From an uncultured Saprospiraceae bacterium (lineage in GTDB: Bacteria > Bacteroidota > Bacteroidia > Chitinophagales > Saprospiraceae): a stretch of DNA of 64,000 bases. The position numbers and the translations under genes are program-made. How positions within the stretch are numbered: the first letter of the stretch is position 1; each line of letters starts with the position of its first letter. Positions 17,933 through 56,325 of this stretch are shown one piece after another. The stretch spans positions 1 through 64,000 of the forward strand of contig CALLPN010000017.1 in assembly GCA_938015435.1 (NCBI GenBank). The letters run 5' to 3'. A model generated the notes under the pieces. It did no database searches. It had not been told where the DNA came from and saw nothing but the letters and a program-made list of their open reading frames with translations.

Positions 17933-19636
17933 TTAGAGGTTTCCTTTTTTCAATTCATCAGCAGCATATTTGGCTGCTCTTGCTGTAAGGGCCATATAAG
18001 TAAGAGAAGGGTTTTGACATCCAGAGGAAGTCATTGCCGCGCCATCTGTTACGAATACATTTTTGGCCGCATGCACTTGATTCCATTTGTTGAGTACTGA
18101 TGTCACTGGATCTCTACCCATACGGGCAGTTCCCATTTCGTGGATGCCGTTTCCTGGATTTCCAGCTCTATCATAAGTACTCACATTTTTAAATCCTGCA
18201 GTTTCCATCATCTCAACAGCAGCAGACTGCATTTCGATTCTCATCTTCATCTCATTATCTTTAAACTCCGCATCAAATACTACAGTAGACATACCATGCA
18301 TATCTTTAAGGTCTTCGTTGAGATAGAGTTTATTTTCGTGATAAGGTAGACATTCACCAAAGGCCATGATTCCCATACTCCATTGTCCAGGAGTAGTTAA
18401 TTCTTCTTTGAATTTCGATCCAAAGTTAGCTTCACCTATATTTCTACTCCATCCACGACGGCCACCTCCACCTTGGTATCCAAATCCTCTTAGATAGTCT
18501 TTACGCTTAGTAGCGGCATTAAGGTTTTGAAATCTTGGAATATAGATTCCATTAGGACGGCCTCCTATATGTGTTTTATTTTTAAAATCGTCAGTCTCTC
18601 CACTAGCTCCAGCTTTGAAGTGATGATCCATAAGATTATGACCAAGCTCTCCACTGTCGTTACCAAACCCATTAGGGAATCGCTCTGATTTACTGCGCAG
18701 CATGATGGATGTTGTTCCTACACAAGAGGCATTGAGGAATACTATTTTGGCAAAAAACTCATGCGTCTTACCCGTTTCAGCGTCTATGACTCTTACACCT
18801 GATGCTTTTTGCGTCTTAGGGTTGTATACCACTTCGGATACTATACTGTGAGTCCTCATAGTCATATTTCCTGTAGCTTCTGCAGCTGGCAATGTAGAAG
18901 AGTTACTGCTGAAGTAAGCACCAAATGGACACCCCCGCATACAGCGATTTCGCGATTGACAAGAACCTCGAGTTCCAATTGGTTCTGTTAGATTCGCGGT
19001 CCTTCCGATCAATAGGTTACGTTCAGGATAATTTCCCTCGATACCAGATTTTAATTTTTTTTCTACACAATTAAGCTCCATCGGTTTTTGAAATTTTCCA
19101 TCAGGCAAATGTGGTAAGCCCGCATTTTCTCCACTCACACCAATGAAGGTTTCAACCTTATCATACCAAGGAGATAGGTCCGCATATCTTATAGGCCAGT
19201 CTACAGCGATACCTTCTTTAGCATTGGCTGTAAAGTCAAGATCACTTAATCTATAACTTTGGCGACCCCACATTAGAGATCTTCCTCCTACATGATATCC
19301 TCTGATCCAATCAAAAGGTTTCTTTTCGGTATATGGATGTTCGGTATCTTTTGGCCACCAATGTTTAGTCGATTCGTGGATAGTGTATCCGGTTCTATTT
19401 TGCTTGGGATAGTCCTTCATTTCTTCAGGGGTGATTAGTCCTCCATTGGGCATCTCCCAAGGATCTAAATTCGCAGTAGGGTAGTCACCATGTTTTACCA
19501 TTCTTCCTCTCTCAAGCACTAGTACTTTGAGTCCCAGTTCAGTAAGTTCTTTGGCCGCCCATCCTCCACTAATTCCAGTTCCTACGACTATAGCGTCATA
19601 CGTGACTTCATCTTTCCCATTGGTATTGAAATACAT
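17933..19636 (-). CDS. GMC-family oxidoreductase
   Basis: YDAIVVGTGISGGWAAKELTELGLKVLVLERGR (FAD-binding), C-terminal NVFVTDGAAMTSSGCQNPSLTYMALTARAA. Confidence 0.92.
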   Translation of the reverse strand: MYFNTNGKDEVTYDAIVVGTGISGGWAAKELTELGLKVLVLERGRMVKHGDYPTANLDPWEMPNGGLITPEEMKDYPKQNRTGYTIHESTKHWWPKDTEHPYTEKKPFDWIRGYHVGGRSLMWGRQSYRLSDLDFTANAKEGIAVDWPIRYADLSPWYDKVETFIGVSGENAGLPHLPDGKFQKPMELNCVEKKLKSGIEGNYPERNLLIGRTANLTEPIGTRGSCQSRNRCMRGCPFGAYFSSNSSTLPAAEATGNMTMRTHSIVSEVVYNPKTQKASGVRVIDAETGKTHEFFAKIVFLNASCVGTTSIMLRSKSERFPNGFGNDSGELGHNLMDHHFKAGASGETDDFKNKTHIGGRPNGIYIPRFQNLNAATKRKDYLRGFGYQGGGGRRGWSRNIGEANFGSKFKEELTTPGQWSMGIMAFGECLPYHENKLYLNEDLKDMHGMSTVVFDAEFKDNEMKMRIEMQSAAVEMMETAGFKNVSTYDRAGNPGNGIHEMGTARMGRDPVTSVLNKWNQVHAAKNVFVTDGAAMTSSGCQNPSLTYMALTARAAKYAADELKKGNL

Positions 19637-19840
19637 GTTTCGTTTTTTCGAGGCTAGCAATTTATTTTCTGCAGAGTATTATGTTGTCTTTCTCAAATTA
19701 CTTACTCACGTGCCAATTAATATTTTGTCTGATTCAGTAAGTTTTACTCCGACAGTAATATAGGCAAACCTTACCTATTATTGAAAACGCTCAATAATAT
19801 GAATACAATACGAAATGTTATAATTGAAGATGTATGAAAA

Positions 19841-22212: not shown

Positions 22213-22442
22213 TTCTACTTCAATAGGTTAATGTGTTGAGAGTCATAGTTAGCTACGCAACATAGACATCTAGGAGGGCTGGTGACAAAACACGCGAAGC
22301 GATTGGGTTTGTCTAGGATTTTTGTCTCTTTTTTTCCAATGCAAAAAGAGAACCGTCGGTAGACACATAACGTATGAAAGTATTAATCAAATAATCAATA
22401 GGAAAACTTTTTCTGATGAGTAGGTATCTTTACAATTCAATA
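22213..22442 (+). repeat. Dispersed ~230-bp intergenic repeat, copy 1
   Basis: Near-identical to 56095..56325 (by-eye ~11 substitutions, two 1-nt indels). Confidence 0.95.
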
Positions 22443-33799: not shown

Positions 33800-33826
33800 T
33801 AAAGTATAAAATAAATATAGACGGAA

Positions 33827-34378
33827 CTCCTTTGCGATCTTCGTGTCTTTGTGGTTCTATTTAGGTATAGTAAACAAAAAATAATATTGAATCTTAAAGT
33901 CTAACCTAAGTTAATCCAATTTTTAATAGCAGAAAACTCCTTTGCGATCTTCGTGTCTTTGTGGTTGTATTTAAGTATAGGAGACAAAAAATAATATTGA
34001 ATCTTAAAGTATAACTTAAGTTAATACAGCTTTTAACAGCAGAAATTTTCTTTGCGATCTTCGTGTCTTTGTGGTTCTATTTAAGTATAGTAGACAAAAA
34101 ATAATATTGAACCTTAAAGTCTAACCTAAGTTAATACAACTTTTAACAGCAGAAAGCTCCTTTGCGATCTTCGTGTCTTTGTGGTTCTATTTAAGTATAG
34201 TAAACAAAAAATAATATTGAATCTTTAAAGTCTAACCTAAGTTAATACAACTTTTAACAGCAGAATACTCCTTAGCGATCTTCGTGTCTTTGTGGTTCTA
34301 TTTAAGTATAGTAGACAAAAAATAATATTGAATCTTAAAGTCTAACTTAAGTTAATCCAATTTTTAATAGCAGAAAAT
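33827..34378 (+). repeat. Minisatellite, 5 x ~110 bp
   Basis: TTTGCGATCTTCGTGTCTTTGTGGTT anchors at 33831, 33941, 34051, 34161, 34272 (last copy TTAGCGATC; one-base insertion in unit 4). Confidence 0.97.
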
Positions 34379-34413
34379 TACTTGCTGAAATATGAAATAG
34401 TAACAAAAGATCT

Positions 34414-56046: not shown

Positions 56047-56094
56047 CTGAGATTTACACTTTATAATAGTACACAACTTTACAGTTCAACAGTT

Positions 56095-56325
56095 TTCTAC
56101 TTCAATAGATTAATGTGTTGAGAGTCATAATTTGTTACGCAACATAGACATCTAGAAGGGCTGGTGACAAAACACGTGGAGCGATTGGGTTTGTCTAGGA
56201 TTTTTGTCTCTTTTTTTTCCAATGCAAAAAGAGAATCGTCGGTAGACACATAACGTATGAAAGTATTAATAAAATAATCAATAGGAAAACTTTTTTCTGA
56301 TGAGTACATATCTTTACAATTCAAT
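56095..56325 (+). repeat. Dispersed ~230-bp intergenic repeat, copy 2
   Basis: Near-identical to 22213..22442, same orientation. Confidence 0.95.

Follow-up and report, generated by a model that had tools for sequence, protein, structure and literature searches.

Repeats dispersed in bacterial genomes are generally regarded as DNA palindromes. A major-groove U.A-U triple within an H-type pseudoknot is found in SAM-II, preQ1-II and telomerase RNA, and ENE and ENE-like RNA stability elements, which have an internal U-rich loop and an A-rich tail, form a U.A-U triple helix in transcripts and have been reported in transposable-element RNAs. The SAM-V riboswitch is also a triple-helix H-type pseudoknot (PMC6061858). 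REPs consist of one short hairpin each (20-40 bp) and fall into GTAG/CGTC families (PMC3733652), and Bacteroidetes-enriched subclass 2.6 TnpA_REP genes are reported to be flanked by atypical structures (PMC6006769).

The stretch of Saprospiraceae DNA analysed here (64,000 nt; the window) contains two copies of a 230-bp repeat that shares features with each of these systems. As in the REP/BIME/REPIN elements and RAYT genes of REPtrons (PMC6006769, PMC3733652), the copies are short, palindromic, dispersed and intergenic, and sometimes form inverted pairs; unlike REPtrons, the repeat has a core that is a predicted multi-stem pseudoknot of ~100 nt, whose phylum-wide conservation lies in structure and not in a 20-40 bp palindrome, and no Y1 transposase gene lies beside the tested copies. 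As in bacterial MITEs, the repeat is non-coding, non-autonomous, dispersed in multiple copies and inserted relative to empty orthologous sites, with imperfect arms like terminal inverted repeats (TIRs) in a subset of copies; in contrast to MITEs, its internal fold is conserved while the TIRs differ between families, and neither a clear target-site duplication nor a transposase was identified. The core has the same predicted S1-L1-S2 topology as the SAM-V (PMC6061858), SAM-II, preQ1-II and telomerase pseudoknots, with a U-rich L1 parallel to the S2 A-tract, but it is repeated and mobile, carries additional 5' (P1) and 3' (P3) hairpins, and lacks both a ligand-type gene association and an Rfam match. 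A U.A-U triple helix is predicted as in an ENE, although here it would lie in the H-type pseudoknot of a bacterial repeat. The family thus described is a real, unlisted, Bacteroidota-wide set of mobile structured repeats, of MITE/REP type in dispersal and with a triple-helix pseudoknot as its predicted fold.

Copies, empty sites and distribution

Global alignment of copy 1 (22213-22442, forward strand) with copy 2 (56095-56325, forward strand) spanned both sequences entirely at 94% identity, the differences being 11 substitutions, a single-T insertion at each of two T-runs and an end gap, and a similarity search returned E = 1e-97; the end-to-end match with about 11 substitutions and two T-run indels reported in a sequence-only reading was thereby reproduced. 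Identity ended abruptly at both edges of the 230-bp repeat. Copy 1 occupies the spacer between ggt, which encodes a gamma-glutamyltranspeptidase, and a divergent gene for a fatty-acid desaturase, and copy 2 that between DUF5687 and ABC ATPase genes that are both co-directional with it, intergenic positions that agree with the shared orientation and non-coding location proposed in the same reading.

Neither a match to the second covariance model (R2) nor any such sequence was present at the orthologous ggt upstream regions of the sister species G003 (L222) and G002 (L223). The DUF5687-ABC spacer measured 305 bp in the window versus ~46 bp in G002 (L220), where the orthologous spacer is without the element; copy 2 has added ~260 bp to an ABC-transporter operon as an insertion. 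A third copy in the same genome (L003/L228; G000:C19, ~19589-19681, minus strand) comprised only the 3' part, repeat positions 137-229, and was situated directly after a stop codon and upstream of a DEAD-box helicase gene; the element was absent from the orthologous regions of three sister genomes, and this copy is a 5'-truncated insertion. The orthologous sites of both window copies and of the third copy were empty, so all three are insertions in this lineage. Flanking copy 2 on its 5' side, an imperfect direct repeat of 22 nt (56068-56089, forward strand) resembles the repeat's own 3' end (56303-56324; 86% identical, spacing 235) and may be a target-site duplication or the remnant of an earlier copy; a direct repeat of this kind was found at copy 2 only, and the sister species are too diverged to fix the exact target. 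The sequence CTATTATAAAGTG, inverted beside both copies, was discarded as a candidate: those two are its only exact sites, and near-matches were no more frequent than chance.

Sequence inspection and coordinates pointed to a candidate imperfect inverted repeat around the core of copy 1, with ACTTCAATAGGTTAATGTGT as its 5' arm (22217-22236) and ACACATAACGTATGAAAGT as its 3' arm (22363-22381), both given on the forward strand. Imperfect inverted repeats of 25-53 bp surrounded some relatives' cores, scoring above threshold at 8% of copies versus 0.4% of mismatched flanks; TIR-like arms were detectable in a minority of copies, and their sequences differed between genomes. A 385-bp unit of G054 aligned in at least 12 loci with different outer flanks. 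The conserved core within different TIR sequences in different genomes, the units of G054 and G065 with their own boundaries, and the position of genus copies after co-directional genes would be expected if the repeat were an ordinary MITE moved by a TIR-recognising transposase, its pseudoknot being a passenger (e.g., a 3' UTR or terminator element) that various MITEs had picked up repeatedly. We regard this as unlikely, since a TIR was undetectable in most copies, no cognate transposase was identified, and the phylum-wide retention of core order and of the P1 apical sequence without flanks is easier to explain if the core itself is selected. A MITE-like, mobile element as such, which the sequence-only reading had listed among its candidates, is supported by the empty orthologous sites, the dispersed copies, the truncated copy and the TIR-bounded units in some relatives.

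BLAST returned five matches in the own genome (G000) and 14 more in three sister genomes, nearly all of them limited to the ~100-nt core (22267-22368), and the named relatives are uncultured Saprospiraceae metagenome-assembled genomes (MAGs); more than two copies therefore exist. With so many dispersed copies in the own genome and relatives, an origin of just two copies by one segmental duplication is excluded. The first covariance model (R1), built from BLAST-found, MAFFT-aligned sequences, detected 8-14 core copies in each genus genome (E<=0.1) and the core in 36 of 150 family genomes (E<=0.01), some with ~20 copies, while R2, built from 44 sequences, detected it in 12 of 396 genomes of a phylum sample (E<=0.001, strict filters), other families and classes included. 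The exact 38-base pseudoknot pattern of one subtype occurred in 8 of the 396 phylum genomes and a reversed control pattern in none. The family is unlisted: Rfam 15 gave no match in the window, none for copy 1 at E<=5 and none at the core in 18 relative loci, and no description of it was found in the literature searched. A search of a plasmid collection gave no match. The exact subtype pattern was also seen in four viral-collection contigs from IMG/VR (L224-L227), twice in one of them; these matches are possibly host DNA in mis-called or prophage contigs. In some relatives the core occurred in tandem or alternating arrays, and at L122 (G455, 873-1940) a 312-bp tandem array of at least three units carried one core per unit, unlike simple REP arrays.

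A covarying core with a predicted triple helix

The core is ~100 nt long and is predicted to form a hairpin (P1), an H-type pseudoknot (stems S1 and S2 and U-rich loop L1) and a mini-hairpin (P3). Models R1 and R2 located it at 22267-22368 in copy 1 (112.5 bits), and a covariance-model match placed it at 56149-56251 in copy 2 (107.2 bits); these and the following coordinates refer to the forward strand. Covariation in the BLAST-found, MAFFT-aligned sequences defined P1 at 22284-22313 in copy 1 (outer stem GACAAA/TTTGTC; apical CGC-GAA-GCG) and at 56166-56195 in copy 2. Of the GACAAAA and TTTTGTC arms proposed from sequence, the first was retained, with comparative evidence pairing GACAAA (22284-22289) with TTTGTC (22308-22313) and not with the later TTTTGTC; the other proposed hairpin, CTCTTTTT/AAAAAGAG, was confirmed and shows covariation among relatives. 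The S1 5' strand, GGA (22316-22318), pairs with UCC (22335-22337) in the S2 hairpin loop, an assignment based on S1 covariation outside the search model. L1 (UUUUUG, 22319-22324) is the predicted third strand in the S2 major groove, as judged from the register of its U-run with the S2 A-run, and the S2 hairpin (UCUCUUUUU / AAAAAGAGA, 22325-22351) has covarying outer pairs and a near-invariant inner U-A tract. For copy 2, S1 covariation, L1 register and alignment with copy 1 placed the S1/L1/S2 pseudoknot at 56198-56234. Covariation likewise defined P3, which reads GUC-GGUA-GAC in copy 1 (22355-22364) and CGC-GGUA-GCG in sister copies, and which alignment to copy 1 placed at 56238-56247 in copy 2. 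The GGTAG string of the core belongs to the P3 loop and 3' side rather than to an unpaired foot, and the core is not a single 20-40 bp hairpin with the GTAG/CGTC foot of a REP. Two other structural candidates were rejected, namely a closing stem P0 (GGGCUGG with ACCCGC), whose pairing was inconsistent, and a hammerhead reading of CUGAUGAG (22414-22421), in place of which the third copy has CTTGATGAG.

In an alignment of 11 BLAST-found, MAFFT-aligned sequences, 93% of cells at paired positions were paired versus ~47% with slid partners, and the observed covariation was reached by 0 of 500 shuffles. Among 44 sequences, 20 of 22 pairs in the nested helices P1, S2 and P3 had changed on both sides; because the 44-sequence alignment was fitted to the covariance model whereas the 11-sequence alignment was model-free, the latter provides the cleaner test. 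A weak excess of G.U over A.C at paired positions (41:22 and 81:57) may be model bias. The energy from minimum free energy (MFE) folding was no better than that of shuffled sequence (z -0.2), and the case for structure is made on comparative evidence, not folding energy. S1 was noticed by reading model matches; its pairing is absent from both search models, and its rows were anchored by a regular expression. The linker 5' of S2 (CTTGAT, CTTGGC, CTTGAC, CTAGGA, CTAGCA and others) was complementary to the S2 loop (ATCAAG, GCCAAG, GTCAAG, TCCAATG, TGCAATG and others), and both variable pairs of S1 were formed in 66 of 101 rows as compared with a mean of 24 and a maximum of 39 in 2000 shuffles. 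Together with S2, this pairing between S2 loop and linker makes an H-type pseudoknot.

The L1 and S2 tracts were in exact register in 41 of 43 distinct rows, the first non-U of L1 facing the first non-A on the S2 purine strand; the rows had been preselected for S1 pairing and not for tract lengths. This in-register fraction of 95% compared with a permutation maximum of 63%, and the lengths of the L1 U-run and the S2 A-run were correlated at r = 0.97 versus a permutation maximum of 0.54 (20000 permutations). The inner U-A pairs of S2 were near-invariant and the outer pairs varied freely across the 44 sequences, and in the L118 subtype UUUUCUUUG in L1 stands opposite the purine strand CAAAGAAAG such that a C faces a G, flanked by U/A. 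From the register, the facing C and G of L118 and the invariant inner S2, U.A-U (and C+.G-C) triples are predicted, with L1 as the U.A-U major-groove third strand on S2. Covarying S1 and S2 combined with an L1 in register with the S2 purine tract are the sequence features expected of a triple-helix pseudoknot. The same register could arise without a triple helix if L1 and the 5' strand of S2 competed for the A-tract in alternative hairpins, and the inner S2 5' strand is indeed nearly copied by L1, many tracts being mirror-symmetric; this explanation appears very unlikely, because the register, counted from the outer end of the A-tract, does not shift when the inner base changes between C, G and A, and covariation of both the outer S2 pairs and S1 favours a pseudoknot over competing hairpins. 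The conserved feature would then be a fold in three dimensions, as predicted by covariation and by a length register not easily explained without a triple helix. A single-stranded DNA fold (T.A-T) would explain the covariation equally well.

Several genus copies (L033 at 1501-1603, L044 and L016) have kept S1, L1, S2 and P3 and have either lost P1 or exchanged it for unrelated longer hairpins, so that the pseudoknot looks like a module in its own right. The P1 and S2 loops of L012 and L019/L048 contain long insertions that themselves carry imperfect inverted repeats (of the ATTTAGTTGAG / CTCAACTAAAT type); these insertions are nested elements.

Gene context and mobilisation

Of 156 distinct copies, 144 lay outside ORFs of at least 100 codons. 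The upstream gene was co-directional in the genus by 22:6 (p = 0.004), a bias absent from other genera (41:35), and the downstream gene showed no orientation preference in the genus (15:14). The upstream bias fits a transcribed 3'-UTR or spacer element in the genus but is not general. Near the 3' end of the repeat, TATCTTTAC (22425-22433 in copy 1, 56309-56317 in copy 2, forward strand) resembles the Bacteroidota -7 box (TAnnTTTG) and is conserved in the third copy; all three G000 copies with this 3' module terminate in TATCTTTACAA and are followed by a co-directional gene, a location that had been pointed out for the two window copies. Such an arrangement would suit a cis-regulatory leader or portable promoter through which TATCTTTAC and a regulatory RNA were given to downstream genes. 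We consider this most improbable, as the neighbouring genes share no function, downstream genes in the genus are as often reversed, and the phylum-wide core family lacks the 3' module. The cis-regulatory RNA suggested in the sequence-only reading is supported as a structured RNA, with strong covariation that includes a pseudoknot not seen there; in the riboswitch sense it is unsupported because neighbouring genes differ from copy to copy, those in the window are unrelated, and there is no consistent site upstream of one gene class of the kind seen for SAM-II, SAM-V or preQ1-II riboswitches.

Movement of REP/BIME elements by a RAYT (Y1, IS200/IS605-like) transposase, with the fold as a single-stranded DNA substrate and RNA playing no part, would account for intergenic, multi-copy, hairpin-forming repeats with inverted neighbouring pairs (G065, G047 and L118), and the own genome carries Y1_Tnp (PF01797) genes; the atypical structures flanking subclass 2.6 TnpA_REP genes in Bacteroidetes (PMC6006769) may point the same way. 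However, none of 39 Y1_Tnp loci in 11 element-bearing genomes (9 in the genus and 30 in element-rich relatives) adjoined a core, G003 has ~8 core copies and no Y1_Tnp match in an incomplete assembly, and a ~100-nt multi-stem pseudoknot differs from single hairpins of 20-40 bp (PMC3733652). The association with RAYT/Y1 genes was accordingly rejected, and we judge movement of this kind to be rather unlikely. No transposase, reverse transcriptase or recombinase was found consistently near copies.

We consider it probable, on balance, that the family is a non-autonomous mobile (MITE- or REP-like) repeat with a Bacteroidota-wide structured core, copied in trans, whose fold most likely acts as RNA. 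An enzyme provided in trans would insert new copies of the 230-bp repeat in intergenic DNA, and the fold, which we infer to be transcribed and to form in RNA, would be the feature recognised by the mobilising machinery and/or would make insertions in transcribed spacers tolerable, for example by shielding the mRNA upstream against 3' exonucleases. The function we consider most likely combines recognition by the mobilising machinery with tolerance or stabilisation of host transcripts, and the evidence suggests a jumping repeat that spread, and was retained, in the form of a structured RNA. A bolder version, which we hold to be unlikely, would make these phylum-wide SINE-like RNA elements: the triple-helix pseudoknot would be transcribed, and a trans-acting enzyme, reverse-transcribing or other, would recognise its RNA and copy it to new intergenic sites, leaving 5'-truncated copies such as L003, while the fold in place would stabilise or insulate the transcripts of the host. 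Should the fold be confirmed, Bacteroidota would possess a natural triple-helix pseudoknot of wide occurrence, one that gives rise to lineage-specific insertions within operons, as copy 2 illustrates, and that lends itself to testing whether mobile repeats are retained for their RNA structure.

At L143 (G095:C104, contig end), ~175 bp separate a core from a downstream tyrosine recombinase (PF00589/PF13495) gene, which is cut off by the contig end, and at L156 two consecutive nucleotide-sugar dehydratase/epimerase-like genes stand between same-orientation core copies. Same-orientation pairs and the recombinase beside one copy had raised the idea of an integron-like cassette, which was rejected: the genes between paired copies are normal operon genes, and no other copy has a recombinase next to it. 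A Group I intron (Rfam RF00028, 82 bits) was observed ~400 bp from a core copy in L050 (G095, 1639-1829). Elsewhere in the window, the 13-mer CTATTAAAAATTG occurs at 33917-33929 and 34358-34370, 441 bp apart in an ORF-poor spacer (33800-34413), a possible local duplication.
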